Positions 48,256 to 54,326 of a stretch of DNA of 64,000 bases are shown here, piece by piece. The first letter of the stretch is position 1. Each line of letters starts with the position of its first letter. The notes under the pieces were generated by a model that did no database searches, was not told the DNA's origin, and saw only the letters and a program-made list of their open reading frames with translations. The DNA lies in contig NZ_VCEK01000002.1 in NCBI RefSeq assembly GCF_005862235.1, positions 186,001-250,000 on the forward strand. Direction: 5' to 3'. This stretch comes from Saccharomonospora piscinae (GTDB taxonomy: Bacteria > Actinomycetota > Actinomycetes > Mycobacteriales > Pseudonocardiaceae). A program made the translations under genes and the position numbers.

Positions 48256-50835
48256 TCAGCCCGCCCCGAGGCAGAGGAACGGCCGGCGGAACGGGTCCAC
48301 CGCCGTCGCCTCGGCCAGAGACACCGCGGGCGACATCCCGGCGGCGAGGCGCTTGTGCAGATCGGCCATGGCCTCCGCCGAGGCGTGATCGCCCACTCTG
48401 GCCACCGCACCCACGACCGTGTGGCAGCCGCTGGCCAGCAGCGCACCCGCGAAGCCGAGCGCCTCCTCGCCCGGCCGGATGTGGCTCAGTGCCAGCTCGC
48501 ACGCGGCCAGAACCACCCGCTCGGGCGGGTTTGCCAGCCGGGCGGCCTCGTGCGCGAACAGGGGGCCGTCCACGAGTTCGAGCCGCGAGAACAGCGCGTT
48601 CGCGGGCTCGTGCGCCCCGTGTGCCACCAGGTGCGCGAGCCCGGAGCCGTCCAGGGCCGACAACACCGCGTCGCTGGTCGCCGTGTCGCCGTCCACGAGG
48701 GTCGCCGCCGGGTACACCGACGTCAGGCTGCGCACCTCGCCCACCGACCCCGGCACGCCGGGGCCGCCGACGAGCACCACCGGGTCCGGGCTGGCGGCGC
48801 TGGCGGCGCCGAGCCACGCCGTCGCCGACGGGGCCACCGACAGCGGCCTGCCCCGCAGGCTCGGCAGTGCGCCCCACGGCAGGGCGTGCAGCGACCCGGT
48901 CGGGATGATCACCAGCTCGCGGTCACCGAGGTGACGGCGCAACGGCCGCAGCAGCACCTCGTCGAGTCGCTCAGCGCGCCGCCACGCCGACGACAGCACG
49001 GCCGAGGCCAGCGGCGCCGGAAGGTGGTCGGGCGCGAGCGCGTCGAGATCCGCGCGCAGCTGGCGGGTGGTCTCCACCGTGTCGTCCAGCGGTCCCAGCC
49101 GCACGAGGTGGAACCGGCCGTCGCGCACCACCACCGCGGCGAGGGCGTCACCGTGGCCCACGAACGTCACCATCACGCGCTCGCCCAGCTCCGCCGCCAC
49201 CTGGTCGGGAGTGGCCACGGGCCGGGGCCTGCCCCACTGGCTCGTGTACCAGCCCAACCGGCTCGCCTCCCGCTGCAGCCAGGCGTAGCGGTTCTCCAGC
49301 GCGCTGACCGGCTTGCCGGCCAGCCGGTTCTGCTGGACCGTGCGCTGGATGTGCCGCATCTCGGCCAGGTACTTGGCCAGCACCGGGTCGTCGATCGCGG
49401 GCAGTGGCTCGTACCGGTAGACCTGCGCGCGGGTGCGTTCCTGCCACGCGAACAGCCTGCGCGCACCGTCCTGGCCGCGCACGCCGCACAGCACCAGCCC
49501 CACGGCGAGCCTGCCGAGTTCCTGGCCGTGTACCGCCGTGCCGCACAGCAGATCGAGGCCGCCCATGCGATCCCGCGCCCAGCCGAGTTCCTCCAGTCCG
49601 GCACGGGCCTGCGCGAGCGCCGACCTCCGGTTCCCGGTCGCCACGGCCAGCTCGGCGCGGCACAGGCGCAGCAGCATCCGGTGGTCGACCGGGCTGGTCC
49701 GGCGCGGGGTGGGCACGGTGCCGAGCAGGTCCGCCGCCACCTGCCGCTCGCCACGCCGCAACCGCAACCGCACGGCGAGCAGGCGCGCGGCGGCGGTCTC
49801 GTCGCGCAGGCCGAGTTCGGCCAGCCGGTCCGAGACGGCACCGAGCGCCAGCGGGAGCCGTGCCGGCGGCCGGTTCCCGCGTTCCAGCACCTCCGTGGCG
49901 TCCGCCCGCAGCCGGGCCAGCGCGGCGACCTCCGCCCAGGGCAGGTTGCCTCGGCGCAGGAACCGCCGCCGGGCCGCCACCGCGAGGCGGCGGGCCGCCA
50001 CGTACTCGCCGTCGAGCAGCGCCGCCGCCGCGCGCGCGACCTCGGCCTCGGCCAGGTCCTGGATCACGCGGTTGCGCCGCAGGTCGGGTAGCGCCTCGTC
50101 GAGATGGCGAGCGGCCTCCGTGGCCAGCCCCGCCACCAGCAGGGCTCGCGCCTGGTCGAGCCGGACCCTGGCGACCCACCCCGGCGCGGCGTCCTCCAGG
50201 ATGCGCGCCGCCTCGTCGTAGTGCCGCAGGGCGCCCGGGATGTCGCCGGTGAGCTGCGCGAGGTCGCCGAGTCCGTGCCGGGCCTTGCCCTCGATACGGG
50301 TCAGCCGGTATTCGGACGCGAGGCGGATCGCCGAGTCGAAGTCGGCGGCGGCCGCGTCGAGCCGCCCCGTCTCGGCGTGGATCTGCGCCCGGTTGGTCAG
50401 GGTGCGCGCGAGCAACAACCCACCACCGGTGTTCAGCTCCGCCAGTTCCGGGATGATCGAGTCGAACAGGGCGACCGACTCCGACGCCCGACCGACCCGG
50501 AACAGCAGCAGAGCCCGCTGCCCGGTGATGACCGCGTTCAGCTCACGCCGCAGCACCCCGTCCGGCAGCTCGTCGAGCTCGGCCCCCGCGCGCTTGAGAC
50601 CGCGGAAGCCGTCCGCCGTGGACCCGACCTCGGAGGTCGCGAGCGCGAGACTGATGCGGACCCGGATGCGGGCGGCCACCCAATCGGCGGTGTGGTCACC
50701 CGAGTTCTCGATCAGGCGCAGCGCGCGCCGCAACAACCTGATCGCCTCGACATTGTGTGCGCTCGCCGCCGCCTCGTTGGCTCTGCGATGCAGGGCCAGC
50801 ACAGCGGGCAGGCGAGCGCTGCGCGACGCCGCCAC
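48256..50835 (-). CDS. TPR-CHAT protein (caspase-like cysteine protease)
   Basis: This 859-residue protein has a long N-terminal helical part (about residues 10-480) made of TPR-like repeats (GLAHLYRE-style pairs such as TLTNRAQIHAETGRLDAAAA). The C-terminal CHAT domain has catalytic His (HLVAHGAHEP, near residue 737) and Cys (VVLAACELALS, near residue 777). CHAT proteins are separase/caspase relatives; in Craspase a TPR-CHAT is activated by a CRISPR effector. Here it follows a sigma factor and a small protein, with the small gene ending 6 bp upstream. It is probably an activated protease; its target is unknown but could be a neighbour-encoded protein. Confidence 0.9.
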   Translation of the reverse strand: MAASRSARLPAVLALHRRANEAAASAHNVEAIRLLRRALRLIENSGDHTADWVAARIRVRISLALATSEVGSTADGFRGLKRAGAELDELPDGVLRRELNAVITGQRALLLFRVGRASESVALFDSIIPELAELNTGGGLLLARTLTNRAQIHAETGRLDAAAADFDSAIRLASEYRLTRIEGKARHGLGDLAQLTGDIPGALRHYDEAARILEDAAPGWVARVRLDQARALLVAGLATEAARHLDEALPDLRRNRVIQDLAEAEVARAAAALLDGEYVAARRLAVAARRRFLRRGNLPWAEVAALARLRADATEVLERGNRPPARLPLALGAVSDRLAELGLRDETAAARLLAVRLRLRRGERQVAADLLGTVPTPRRTSPVDHRMLLRLCRAELAVATGNRRSALAQARAGLEELGWARDRMGGLDLLCGTAVHGQELGRLAVGLVLCGVRGQDGARRLFAWQERTRAQVYRYEPLPAIDDPVLAKYLAEMRHIQRTVQQNRLAGKPVSALENRYAWLQREASRLGWYTSQWGRPRPVATPDQVAAELGERVMVTFVGHGDALAAVVVRDGRFHLVRLGPLDDTVETTRQLRADLDALAPDHLPAPLASAVLSSAWRRAERLDEVLLRPLRRHLGDRELVIIPTGSLHALPWGALPSLRGRPLSVAPSATAWLGAASAASPDPVVLVGGPGVPGSVGEVRSLTSVYPAATLVDGDTATSDAVLSALDGSGLAHLVAHGAHEPANALFSRLELVDGPLFAHEAARLANPPERVVLAACELALSHIRPGEEALGFAGALLASGCHTVVGAVARVGDHASAEAMADLHKRLAAGMSPAVSLAEATAVDPFRRPFLCLGAG

Positions 50836-50841
50836 CAGCCG

Positions 50842-51303
50842 TCAGAGGACGACCGCCGGGGTCACCACGGTTCGCCGCCCCGGCTCGCCACCGACGTAGA
50901 CCACGATCTGCGTGGTGCCACTCGGCACGTCGTGCAGCACGAACCGGCCGCCGTCGTCAGCCACGGTGCAACACGTGTCGTGCCCTGCCACCCGCACCTC
51001 CACGGCGTGCTCGCCCTCGGGCACCAGCCAGCCGTCGATGCGGTGGCGCTGGCCCGTCTTCGTCAGGTTGATCATGACGGTGAGGTCGCTGACCGTGAAG
51101 GTGATCGTGCCCTGCGCCACGCTGCGCACCCCGGCCGTGGCGTCGGCGCGTTCCCACTGCGCCACCTCGACGTCGAGATCCTCCAGCGCCAGCGCGAACT
51201 GGACGCGCTCGACCAGGTCGGAGGGCGGCGGGTCGAACTCGTCGATCAGCCGGTCGAGATCCAGCAGCAGCGTGTCGTCGTCCGGATAAGCCCCGTCATT
51301 CAT
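50842..51303 (-). CDS. unassigned 153-residue protein between sigma factor and CHAT protein
   Basis: This protein has an N-terminal acidic helical half (LLLDLDRLIDEFDPPPSDLVERVQFAL). The C-terminal half, about 90 residues of beta strands, resembles a carboxypeptidase-regulatory-like or transthyretin-like fold (GWLVPEGEHAVEVRVAGHD through GGRFVLHDVPSGTTQIVVYV). The ATG overlaps the sigma-factor stop by eight bases. There is no membrane helix. Acidic/helical N-terminal parts like this could bind the sigma factor, as an anti-sigma or adaptor. It is linked to the CHAT gene after 6 bp. The fold call is tentative. Confidence 0.72.
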   Translation of the reverse strand: MNDGAYPDDDTLLLDLDRLIDEFDPPPSDLVERVQFALALEDLDVEVAQWERADATAGVRSVAQGTITFTVSDLTVMINLTKTGQRHRIDGWLVPEGEHAVEVRVAGHDTCCTVADDGGRFVLHDVPSGTTQIVVYVGGEPGRRTVVTPAVVL

Positions 51304-52009
51304 CCGCTGCCCCCTCCTGAGCATCCAACGTCTCCCGCAGGCGAGCGAGGCAACGTCCCCTCGTCGGCCCGATACTGCCGCGCGGAATGCGCAGGACATC
51401 GGCGACCAGACCGTACTCGGCCCTGCCGGCCAGCACCGTCAGCCGCAGTAGCTCCCGGCAGCGCTCCGGCAACCGGTTGAACGCCTCCCAGATGCGCCGG
51501 TCCCGATCGGCACGCAGCGCCACCGCGTCCGGCGGGGGTTGCGTGCTCGGCATCGTCTCGGCGAGTTCCTCGGTCAACGGCACGGGGCGGCGGGCCCGTT
51601 CGGCGACGTCGCGGGACTCCCGCCGCGTCGTGGTGATCAGCCACTTCGCCAGCGCCTTCGGGTCCTCGATGCGGTCGAGGTTGCGGAACAGGGCCAGCCA
51701 GACCGTCTGCACCACGTCCTCGGCCGTGTGCCGGTCGAGGCCGTTGCCGCGCGCGACCTGCCACACCAGCGGTGTCAGCTCCCGGACCAGCCGGTTCAGG
51801 GCACCGCGGTCGCCGAGCTTCGCGGCGTGCATGCAGGCCGCGTACAGCTCGTGACCGCGCAGACCGTCCCACGACGGATCGGCCTCGGCCGTTCTGGCGT
51901 CGGTCACCGCGTCCGCCTTCCCGAATCTCGAAGTTGATATTCGCGGAAGAAGTATCTCTAGCTCGTCGCTGTCACACAGCGTTCTGGTCGAAACCAATCC
52001 CATACTCAC
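51296..52009 (-). CDS. RNA polymerase sigma factor (ECF-like, sigma-70 family)
   Basis: This 237-residue protein has region 2 (ALNRLVRELTPLVWQVARGN through ALAKWLITTTRRESRDVAERA) and region 4 (FNRLPERCRELLRLTVLAG, then IPRGSIGPTRGRCLARLRETL). An additional N-terminal stretch of about 45 residues contains one Cys. GTG at 52009 is chosen because it overlaps the stop of the upstream protease-inhibitor frame (GTGA). The gene lies in the same run as a papain-like peptidase, a chagasin-like inhibitor and a CHAT protein. It probably controls that group or a wider set of genes; there is no promoter match to test. Confidence 0.88.
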   Translation of the reverse strand: MSMGLVSTRTLCDSDELEILLPRISTSRFGKADAVTDARTAEADPSWDGLRGHELYAACMHAAKLGDRGALNRLVRELTPLVWQVARGNGLDRHTAEDVVQTVWLALFRNLDRIEDPKALAKWLITTTRRESRDVAERARRPVPLTEELAETMPSTQPPPDAVALRADRDRRIWEAFNRLPERCRELLRLTVLAGRAEYGLVADVLRIPRGSIGPTRGRCLARLRETLDAQEGAADE

Positions 52010-52355
52010 TCGGTCGGACTAGCGGACAGGACGAAACGAACCGAGCGGCGCGGCGTCGCCTCCCACGGCCGCGCCAGCTCGGTGTCGATGAGGTGCCGGC
52101 CGGTGCCGACGACGTCGAACACCAGCCTGCGCACCCACCTCCCCCCGGGACCCCGCCCCCAACGGGACCCGCTTCCGGTTGGCCGCCACCCCCACCGACG
52201 TACTCGTCGGCGACCAGCCGGACCCCCTCGGGGACATGCGGTGACCACCGGTAACCCGACGTCCGGCGTTCCCGGAGCCGGAGCTCCACGGAGTCGCCGA
52301 CACGCAACCGCACCACGCGGCCCGCGTCGTCCTCCGTGAGGCCGACCGGTGTCAC
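52006..52355 (-). pseudogene. chagasin-family (I42) cysteine protease inhibitor, frameshifted
   Basis: The 5' frame from GTG 52355 (ribosome site GGGGAGG) encodes LTEDDAGRVVRLRVGDSVEL, then RERRTSGYRWSP (the chagasin NPTTGY-loop position) and EGVRLVADEYVGG. A second frame then gives RWVRRLVFDVVGTGRHLIDT and ELARPWEATP (the conserved RPWE loop). The two join if one G is added to a G-tract (around 52141-52160 on the plus strand, all C-runs). The corrected protein is about 116 residues with no signal peptide. Its stop TGA overlaps the sigma-factor GTG. It could be a sequencing slip, a real pseudogene or a programmed -1 shift; I cannot tell which. Confidence 0.7.
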
Positions 52356-52481
52356 CACACCTCCCCTCGCTGTACCGCCGAACGCCCCCATCGCCCGGCG
52401 GCCACCCCCGCCCCTGCGGTTGAGCGGTGGCCGGCGGCCCCCTCGACTGCCGGCCACCTGCCTGCCACGCGGGTCACGCGA

Positions 52482-53066
52482 TCAGACCAGCAGCTGATCG
52501 ATGTGCCCACGTGCGTCCTCGTGATAGGCCACGGCAAGCCGGTAGTTCCGCGCCAGCACAGCCAGCAGAGTCAGCTGGCTCGACCCGGAGTCCGACGCCG
52601 CCAGCGGCTTCCAGCCGAGACCGGCCACCGCGACCCACACGCCGGGCGCGTCGGCCGCCGACCACAGGTGCGTGATCGCGGCCCCTCGCACCCAGCCCCC
52701 GGCCGGTGCGGCCTGGTCGCCTGCCGGGCCGGGCACCGGCGCTGGCGGTACCGGCATGCCCTGGGCGGTGGCCGTGTGCGGCGGCGCGGGCGGCGCGGAA
52801 CGCACCGGCGGCGTGTACGGGTCCCAGCCCGCCGGTGCCACCGGGGCCGACCGCACCGGCGGCGCGTACGGATCCCACCCCGCGGGCGCGACCGGTGACG
52901 GCGGCGCTGTCGGCGCTGACGGTGTTGATGGTGTTGACGGAGCCGGCGGTGCGTACGGGTCCCACCCGGTCGGCGGCAGCGGCGGCTGCTTCTCCGTCTC
53001 GGGCGCCGCCGTGCGCTCGGCGGGCTCCTCACCGTTCTGGTGTTCGGTAACCGTGTCCTGTGACAT
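52482..53066 (-). CDS. Pro-rich GWDPY-repeat protein beside the papain-like peptidase
   Basis: This 194-residue protein has an acidic N-terminus. A low-complexity Pro/Ala-rich middle contains three near-identical GWDPYAPP motifs (PTGWDPYAPP, PAGWDPYAPP, PAGWDPYTPP). A C-terminal folded part (residues 115-194) reads GGWVRGAAITHLW, then LLAVLARNYRLAVAY. I do not recognise the C-terminal domain. It starts 17 bp after the papain-like gene. The tandem motifs could be docking or cleavage segments for a protease; there is no direct proof. It is followed after about 125 bp by the inhibitor gene. Confidence 0.7.
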   Translation of the reverse strand: MSQDTVTEHQNGEEPAERTAAPETEKQPPLPPTGWDPYAPPAPSTPSTPSAPTAPPSPVAPAGWDPYAPPVRSAPVAPAGWDPYTPPVRSAPPAPPHTATAQGMPVPPAPVPGPAGDQAAPAGGWVRGAAITHLWSAADAPGVWVAVAGLGWKPLAASDSGSSQLTLLAVLARNYRLAVAYHEDARGHIDQLLV

Positions 53067-53083
53067 GTGACTTCTCTTCTCTC

Positions 53084-54235
53084 TCACCCGGCAAGTTCGA
53101 CAGCGCCGAGTTCGTCGCCCACGACGAACGGCGCGCACGCCAGCCCTCTCGCTCTGGCCGCCCCCAGTACGGCGAGCGAGACGGTGGCCAGGTTCCGCTC
53201 GCGCGTCACCCTGGTCCAGCCCAGTTGCTCCAGATAGGCCCAGGCGTTGCCCTCGTGGGTCGAGGTGAACAGCCCGAGCGCGCGCTGGGCGGGTAGCCAC
53301 GCGCGCAACTCCACACCGGTGCAGCCGAAGGTGGTCGGCCGCGGGTCCGGATAGTCCTCGATGTAGGCCTCGCCGTACGCGATGCGCAGGTAGCCGTCCT
53401 CTCCCCAGTCCCGGCCCCAGGAGTTCTTCGCGATCCAGCAGCCCGCGTCGTCGTCCCACCCGACCAGCGCGACACAGTGACCGCCGCTGGTCTCCTCCGT
53501 GGTGTGCCGGTAGACACCCCCGGTGTAGTGGTACAGGTCGTCGTACACCACGAGGCACGCCGTGACGGGCCCGTGGGCGTAGAGGTGTCGCTTGATGGCG
53601 GCCGGGTCGCGGCTGAGGTCGACCACGTCGTGTGCCCTGGCGAGCCGGTCGCGCCAGCCGGGGTTGAGCGCACCCGTGCCGTCGTCGCGGTACGGGTAGT
53701 AGTCCTCGAACGTGACACCCAGGTCGCGGCAGTCGACGAGCAGCTCGTCCGGCCACGTCCCGTCGGGCAGGATGGCCTCTCTCGCGGCCGCGTGCCCGAA
53801 GAACAGGTGCGCCTCGGACAGATCGAGCGCCAGGCCGGGCGCGCTCCGCGAGTAGGCGGCGGTGGACTCCAGCGTCGCGAGCACCCCGAACGCGCTGCAC
53901 GACCCGCAGTCGCCCTGGTCCTTCACCGGCGTGACGTAGGACCTTCCCCCGACGTCCCGCAGATCGAACGCGCGGGGCAGGTGAGGGGTCGGCGCGTGCG
54001 GCGCCGACACCGGCGCGCCATCGAGTTCGAGCGCCGAGGCCGCCATCCGGGCCGGAAGATCGGCCCTGCTCTCGACCTCCTCCGCCCGGGGAGCGGGAAC
54101 GCCGAGGCGGCGGCGCCGACGTGGCCGGTCGAGAGCACTCACCCGCGTGCGGCCGCATCGCCACGGATCGCCCAGCGCGGCCAGGGAGTCGCGGAGTGCC
54201 GCGATCTCCGAGGCGCAGCCGTCGTCGGGGCTCAT
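53084..54235 (-). CDS. papain-family (C1) cysteine peptidase without signal peptide
   Basis: This 383-residue enzyme has the full papain triad. Gln-Cys is in VKDQGDCGSCSAFGVLATLE (Cys near residue 112), His in SGGHCVALVGWDDD (near 252) and Asn in AKNSWGRDWGEDG (near 270). The N-terminal 85 residues form a short helical/basic region, possibly a prodomain, and the C-terminal 80 residues are extra. No signal peptide or membrane helix is seen, so it probably acts in the cytosol, which is unusual for this family. ATG 54235 has GGAGG four bases upstream. Next to it on the same strand are a repeat protein, a chagasin-like inhibitor, a sigma factor and a CHAT protein. Confidence 0.9.
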   Translation of the reverse strand: MSPDDGCASEIAALRDSLAALGDPWRCGRTRVSALDRPRRRRRLGVPAPRAEEVESRADLPARMAASALELDGAPVSAPHAPTPHLPRAFDLRDVGGRSYVTPVKDQGDCGSCSAFGVLATLESTAAYSRSAPGLALDLSEAHLFFGHAAAREAILPDGTWPDELLVDCRDLGVTFEDYYPYRDDGTGALNPGWRDRLARAHDVVDLSRDPAAIKRHLYAHGPVTACLVVYDDLYHYTGGVYRHTTEETSGGHCVALVGWDDDAGCWIAKNSWGRDWGEDGYLRIAYGEAYIEDYPDPRPTTFGCTGVELRAWLPAQRALGLFTSTHEGNAWAYLEQLGWTRVTRERNLATVSLAVLGAARARGLACAPFVVGDELGAVELAG

Positions 54236-54326
54236 CCGTCCTCCAGCAGTGATCGGACCTTCTTTCACTCCACAGGAGGGCAGGGGCCGCGCTCAGATAC
54301 ATCGGAGGACGGGAATTTTTCGATCG

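Follow-up and report, generated by a model that had tools for sequence, protein, structure and literature searches.

A candidate ECF54-like proteolytic circuit in Saccharomonospora piscinae with a papain-type peptidase, a motif-array protein and a TPR-CHAT protein

Background

Sigma factors of the extracytoplasmic function (ECF) group ECF54 are found in a genomic context of carboxypeptidase, subtilase and CHAT proteins, and proteolysis has been proposed to control the sigma factor (accessible part of PMC8999054, citing Casas-Pastor 2021 and Huang 2015). In type III-E CRISPR systems, Csx29, a CHAT protein with tetratricopeptide repeats (TPR), cuts a loop in Csx30, which gives the precedent of a Csx29-Csx30-sigma set (accessible part of PMC10028731). 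Caspase-like proteases and ECF sigma factors also occur in conflict systems (PMC8195603 and PMC10028731, in their accessible parts). The current work concerns a locus in a 64,000-nucleotide stretch of Saccharomonospora piscinae (contig NZ_VCEK01000002.1, positions 186,001 to 250,000; hereafter the window), in which a papain-like peptidase, a repeat protein, an I42 (chagasin-like) region, a sigma factor, a small protein and a TPR-CHAT protein are encoded in this order on the minus strand. This locus may be a self-contained, sigma-controlled proteolytic circuit similar to ECF54 loci, with a papain-type zymogen in the slot usually taken by the subtilase, an adaptor and promoter feedback; we hold this reading with slightly less than even confidence.

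Comparison with described systems

The locus resembles the ECF54 context in that an ECF sigma factor, a small protein with a weak likeness to CarboxypepD_reg and a TPR-CHAT protein lie in one run with a second protease adjoining. In place of the subtilase it has a C1 peptidase, read as a papain zymogen, and it differs further in having a separate array-bearing partner and an optional I42. The ECF sigma factor and the CHAT protein are both present and the subtilase is missing; the locus is therefore called like ECF54 loci and not ECF54 itself. Neither the arrays nor the shared domain described below are mentioned in the accessible text of section 3.3 of PMC8999054.

With the type III-E CASP systems, the locus shares a TPR-CHAT protease, an ECF sigma factor and a third protein, whereas the window locus has in addition a second protease and an array. 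The CHAT protein of the window falls outside the Csx29 family (NF041237, 17.3 bits against a cut-off of 300). The systems of EACC2-caspase, ECF sigma factor and DUF1822 (accessible part of PMC8195603) likewise combine a caspase-like protease with an ECF sigma factor and a TPR protein, but no such domains appeared in the Pfam scan of the reading frames covered (six genes, MarR, FUSC), in which EACC2 may have no model. PoyH-type C1A leader peptidases belong to clusters for ribosomally synthesized and post-translationally modified peptides (RiPPs), PoyH itself having the site LDQAAGG (accessible part of PMC10885120). They are, like the window enzyme, bacterial C1A peptidases without a transporter domain; the window enzyme differs in its N-terminus, which resembles a propeptide, and in a C-terminal domain that it shares with the repeat protein. 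CHAT is not mentioned in the accessible parts of PMC13118837 and PMC8103513, and the papain branch, the arrays and the adaptor are not described in the titles and abstract openings found, most subscription papers lying beyond reach.

Organization and conservation of the locus

Open reading frames and Pfam and NCBIfam matches bore out the six same-strand genes of the original prediction. The peptidase has 383 amino acids (53084..54235, minus strand, as are all features below unless stated; PF00112 E 7e-38) and is followed by the repeat protein of 194 amino acids (52482..53066), the I42 region, the ECF-type sigma factor (51296..52003; Sigma70_r2; TIGR02937 76.6 bits, cut-off 42.9), the small protein (50842..51303) and the TPR-CHAT caspase-like protein (48256..50835; PF12770 E 3e-28, 99.5 bits against a cut-off of 24; TPR_1 E 9e-7). 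The tight packing predicted from sigma factor to CHAT gene also held, with an overlap of 8 bases between the sigma and small-protein genes and a gap of 6 bases before the CHAT gene. Alignments likewise agreed with the prediction that the active sites in the window are intact, both the Cys/His/Asn of the peptidase and the His739/Cys779 of the CHAT protein.

A profile of ten peptidases (E <= 1e-30), searched against 249 genomes of the family, found 43 places in 42 genomes and 13 genus codes. At 38 of these places, in 11 genus codes, the peptidase is followed on its own strand by the sigma/small unit, at a distance of 1.1-2.4 kb. The five unlinked places comprise two at contig ends (G160, G272), one strong match (G146) and two weak ones (G255, G161). 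Within the stretches fetched for the 38 linked loci, the C-terminal domain of the repeat protein (the partner) was found in 35 and CHAT in 28. The original prediction had proposed such a co-occurrence survey; the two sets also occur singly, yet their juxtaposition is conserved, and this survey rules out that they are chance neighbours.

Relatives of the small protein (profile, E <= 1e-8) are present in at least 130 of the 249 genomes, and the sigma-small-CHAT set is also found without the peptidase. Units of peptidase, partner and I42 with no match for sigma factor, small protein or CHAT are seen in turn in L199-L207, with I42 on the other strand in L208, although such neighbours could lie beyond the ends of the short contigs of L199 and L205 (5.1 and 4.2 kb). 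The hosts of L199-L208 belong to Micromonosporaceae, Solirubrobacter, Ilumatobacteraceae and Amycolatopsis. Peptidase and I42 stand alone in L210, L211 and L213, such pairs being found in Caenispirillum and Desulfobacterales metagenome-assembled genomes. The window locus is thus a place where two units, papain/partner/I42 and sigma-small-CHAT, are joined. The C-terminus of partners outside sigma-CHAT loci is frequently IYLW-like, and GG leader-like stretches occur in some of them.

The surroundings of the locus vary: FUSC and amidohydrolase-type genes are found in one group, and GroEL- and CutC-like genes, by eye, in G012. MarR, FUSC and two metabolic genes were considered as parts of the system and rejected, as tblastn gave no match to any of them in the L085 stretch (G012) or the L084 stretch (G019).

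The papain-like peptidase and its variants

The peptidase has the fold and the Cys/His/Asn residues of papain family C1A. Its N-terminal residues, about 85 in number, are propeptide-like, and since the top PDB matches of its AlphaFold2 model (AF2; predicted local distance difference test, pLDDT, 91) are pro-cathepsins, it is read from this model as a probable papain-type zymogen. Catalytic His and Asn are conserved in all 42 aligned copies and Cys in 35. The equivalent of papain Cys22 is missing in 21 of the 42, which fits a cytosolic enzyme; peptidase, repeat protein and inhibitor have no signal peptide, as judged by eye only.

In the alignment, the catalytic Cys is replaced by Ser in 7 of the 10 CHAT-less linked loci versus none of the 28 CHAT-bearing ones. 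These orthologues (L149, L153, L154, L165, L166, L168, L169), which are likely pseudo-proteases judging from their residues, still stand beside the sigma-small unit and keep the promoter site.

The repeat protein, its array and the shared domain

No match to the repeat protein was found in Pfam or NCBIfam. Its N-terminal part is a proline-rich, disordered-looking array, which in the window consists of three copies of a GWDPY motif (52815..52967). In a DNA pattern search of the own genome, the GWDPY pattern occurs at 3 places, all inside this array, and the control pattern at 1. The motif differs among species (GWDPYxPP, GWEPYxPP, GAWDPNTPP, GVYDPNTPP, GAYDPNTPP or GNWSPNTPP), yet it is nearly uniform inside each protein. 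ARAGORN reports a tRNA-Val at 52889-52974 on the plus strand, over the repeat array and opposite to the repeat-protein gene, which is most likely a false positive.

The conserved C-terminal domain (52485..52706) matches its hidden Markov model (HMM) at 2e-37, the window copy being among the sequences from which that model was built. About 70 residues of this domain are homologous to the C-terminal stretch of the peptidase (53087..53299). The direct hhalign comparison gives E 3e-4 over 71 columns with a probability of only 18%; cross-matches of the peptidase and partner profiles in related loci (E 8e-3 to 6e-8) strengthen the homology.

When an array is defined as any 5-mer present at least 3 times, it is found in 26 of 28 repeat-protein copies beside CHAT and in none of 18 elsewhere, that is, 0 of 7 beside the sigma-small unit without CHAT and 0 of 11 where no sigma unit is seen, the 11 including the short contigs L199 and L205. 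The count omits L157 and L163, which lie at contig ends, and three linked loci without a repeat protein. As a background figure, 4 of 463 called genes (at least 80 codons; window and 32 loci) contain such an array, and 3 of the 4 are the array-bearing proteins treated here.

Subtilases and arrays in related loci

In loci of other families, a subtilase (PF00082 E 1e-11 to 3e-24) is encoded directly upstream of the sigma factor (L096, L097, L099-L101) or between the small protein and CHAT (L098). In the class survey, this subtilase was present in 16 of 296 genomes. Fifteen subtilase loci could be viewed with wide flanks: L237 has subtilase and CHAT only, and 14 have sigma factor, small protein, subtilase and CHAT, the last being truncated where the contig of L241 ends and 4 kb away in L242. 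These arrangements are consistent with the ECF54 context given in section 3.3 of PMC8999054. In the family survey (E <= 1e-40), the subtilase was found in 42 of 249 genomes, 11 of which also have the peptidase. It is absent from all 28 genomes whose papain locus includes CHAT and present in 9 of the 10 whose papain locus is CHAT-less, the other shared genomes being G146 and G255. The own genome contains no subtilase of this type at E 1e-40.

Tandem repeats are also a property of these subtilases, in which they lie in the linker between N-domain and catalytic domain (in L101 the repeat is elsewhere in the protein). They include NPYHSG (4 copies), APFTRG (7-8), HPYDSS (4), VPFGSG (5), NPFMKT (4), GGPFMK (4) and others; the PLTRGN and VGYGDG arrays are without a Pro-aromatic pair. 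The 52 subtilase entries represent 51 distinct genes, L101 and L248 being identical, and at least 3 copies occur in 25 of them and at least 2 in 40. Among the array copies, 723 codon differences are synonymous and 53 non-synonymous, a count biased by the choice of arrays for amino-acid likeness; slippage alone as the cause of the arrays is disfavoured by it. Some subtilases without an array have one PW[DE]-type copy (L259-L262, L274) and some none (L228, L231, L249); L099, also negative by the detector, has three longer copies by eye, L230 is a fragment and L263 is probably read in the wrong frame.

Among 18 loci that have sigma-small or CHAT but neither protease, inspection by eye revealed a short peptide bearing a similar motif in 6 (L086, ending GGWEPNTPPPNA; L087, GNWEPNGTNPPVN; L088; L090; L104, with four GGPYKPL copies; L105) and another short or repetitive peptide in 6 (L089, L091, L092, L094, L106, L174). 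The peptides upstream of CHAT in L094, L106 and L174 are short and contain Cys and His (GHHEGN twice in L174), which is another peptide type.

A conserved promoter-like element

At 54270..54300, upstream of the peptidase, the operon has a putative promoter of ECF type (GTATCT, 17 bases, TCCTGTGG). GTATC precedes the peptidase match by 64-115 nt in every one of the 41 regions covered, compared with 0.06 expected per 260-nt window; these regions omit two weak peptidases (matches under 900 nt) and include L151, which is unlinked to a sigma factor. The pattern GTATCTN{15,18}TCNTRTGG occurs 3 times in 12 genomes of the genus, always just upstream of the peptidase (G000, G001, G009), and its backward control not at all. 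Three of the five carriers in the genus thus have the exact pattern, from which the copies of G003 and G004 deviate. A version with fixed 15-base spacing was discarded as uninformative, with two matches elsewhere and more matches for the control than for the pattern; that spacing is wrong for the genus. GTATC also precedes the sigma factor in 29 of the 38 linked loci, and in L086-L089, L091 and L174 it stands before genes for short peptides.

Proposed circuit and alternative explanations

The original prediction proposed here a proteolytic signalling or dormancy/defence circuit. A circuit with the sigma factor as its output fits the anatomy of the locus, the ECF54 context and the Csx29-Csx30-sigma precedent (PMC10028731, accessible part); the central place given to the inhibitor pair found no support. 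In such a circuit, the TPR-CHAT protein, whose domains and active site are recognizable, would be the trigger protease, with its TPR lobe perhaps sensing the cue. Its partner would be the tandem short-motif array, carried in cis in the subtilase linker or in trans on the repeat protein, as here. The array would most likely dock several TPR-CHAT molecules or offer cleavage sites, and the repeat protein may act as an adaptor that ties the papain zymogen to CHAT through the domain it shares with the papain. The small protein might hold or deliver the sigma factor and be a target of the proteolysis that frees it, by analogy with Csx30 and the CASP sigma factor. The sigma factor would then switch on the operon that encodes it through the GTATCT promoter, which it presumably recognizes, forming a feedback loop. 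Where intact, I42 may block premature papain activity; its absences show that it is dispensable. Enzyme activities, cue and biological role of the locus are what we infer from this arrangement.

A wider proposal is advanced more tentatively. Actinomycete TPR-CHAT proteases may generally be partnered by fast-evolving tandem motif arrays (Pro-aromatic or W-acidic) that provide a scaffold for docking or induced proximity and are placed in a subtilase, on a papain-clamping adaptor or on a lone peptide, in an interchangeable two-protease cascade with sigma output. If true, this would be a bacterial caspase-like cascade in which serine and cysteine enzymes are exchangeable as the second protease. 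The locus offers candidates for the finding of TPR-CHAT substrates outside CRISPR and for ECF54-like sigma switching, namely the array, the bridging adaptor and the dedicated promoter.

Several observations weigh against the circuit or its generality. CHAT is not nearby in 10 of the 38 linked loci, and 3 of them have no repeat protein; in the genus, 5 of 12 genomes are carriers and the other 7 lack the locus altogether. The repeat proteins of the CHAT loci L084 and L085 have no array (in L085 a separate repeat protein adjoins the array-less partner; in L084 neither was seen), 11 of the 51 subtilases show none, and in 6 of the 18 loci without either protease (L093, L095, L102, L172, L173, L175) no short peptide was seen by eye. 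On the peptidase tree, the array is gained only once and CHAT state and Cys loss change twice each, and the test of independent pairs for array and CHAT yields 2 pairs, which is uninformative. With so few events, the Fisher p values (7e-11, 6e-8, 1e-5) are inflated by kinship, and 6e-8 and 1e-5 overstate the evidence from the subtilase and from Cys. Among the families and solved structures searched with the small protein, none named Csx30 or anti-sigma factor was matched. In the window and in four genus relatives (L077-L080), the 300 nt upstream of the sigma factor contain no GTATC. Moreover, the array may serve the second protease as a substrate instead of being the partner of CHAT.

This last point can be extended into an explanation without an adaptor, in which the array acts as bait or as a substrate with many sites: the repeats would be cut by CHAT, papain or subtilase, and the products or the titration of the protease would be the signal. 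The Pro-rich repeats look disordered, cutting of the subtilase array between N-domain and catalytic domain would free the enzyme, and Csx29 does cut a loop of Csx30 (accessible part of PMC10028731). One site suffices for activation by cutting, however, yet the arrays have 3-13 near-identical copies, and the C-terminal domain common to repeat protein and peptidase is left without explanation; this account is considered rather unlikely. Lower still is the standing of two independent modules at one site without protein contact, the papain/partner/I42 set being perhaps a PoyH-like device for peptide maturation. Such sets without sigma factor or CHAT (L199-L208) and the bare peptidase-I42 pairs (L210, L211, L213) speak for it, and the GG stretches of some partners recall the PoyH site (PMC10885120, accessible part). 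A RiPP precursor role of the repeat protein is retained only within this explanation, and no RiPP-modifying enzyme was found by Pfam and NCBIfam among the scanned reading frames (six genes, MarR, FUSC). The linkage at 38 of 43 places across 11 genus codes argues against independence, as do the confinement of the array to CHAT-linked partners and the complementarity with the subtilase.

An anti-phage or dormancy/suicide system, with the papain enzyme as killing effector, appears improbable. Conflict systems do contain caspase-like proteases and ECF sigma factors (PMC8195603 and PMC10028731, accessible parts), and presence in the genus is patchy; yet PADLOC-DB 2.0.0 gave no family for 7 reading frames at E 0.1, and within the genus the locus is repeatedly flanked by FUSC, MarR and two metabolic genes, although no search for mobile elements was made.

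The I42 inhibitor

The I42 gene of the original prediction stands in part. Both halves of the domain match PF09394, the second weakly, and intact copies exist in relatives; the window copy is frame-shifted. Profile positions 2-48 fall in a first frame (52131..52349, E 6e-7) and positions 50-87 in a second (52009..52173, E 0.039; a model built from five relatives gives E 4e-20), and the window assembly contains no complete one-frame I42 domain. The shift lies in a G-rich stretch around 52131-52173, and the copy is either broken by a real mutation or mis-assembled, which are indistinguishable here. I42 is intact in L077, L078, L081, L082 and L084, degenerate or partial in L079 and L080, and missing in L083 and L085. 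Counting the split window copy and the partial one of L080, a match is present in 23 of the 38 linked loci and absent from 15. In view of the broken copy and these absences, I42 was rejected as a core part, and the protease-inhibitor pair as the heart of the predicted circuit is not supported; no result showed the inhibitor acting on the sigma factor.

Sigma factor, small protein and CHAT protein

The predicted overlap of the inhibitor stop with the sigma start holds only if the doubtful upstream start is used. L081 and L082 contain an in-frame stop in the same extension, and the sigma factor may therefore start at the GTG at 51907.

The AF2 model of the small protein (pLDDT 77) shows two N-terminal helices and a beta-sandwich. 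Its fold search gave no match at E <= 0.001, its profile found nothing better than E 0.34 among solved structures, and its match to CarboxypepD_reg (E 0.037) is weak and below the cut-off.

The CHAT residues His739 and Cys779 are found in 49 of 50 aligned rows, the remaining row being a gap, and a solved structure named 'CHAT domain protein' (8d9f) is matched by the CHAT profile at E 2.5e-4. The TPRs of kinesin light chain bind W-acidic peptides, and kinesin light chain structures are among the many TPR proteins matched by the TPR part of the profile. CHAT genes occur as tandem pairs in L099 and L100, and without the sigma-small unit in the stretch in L090, L094, L104 and L106.

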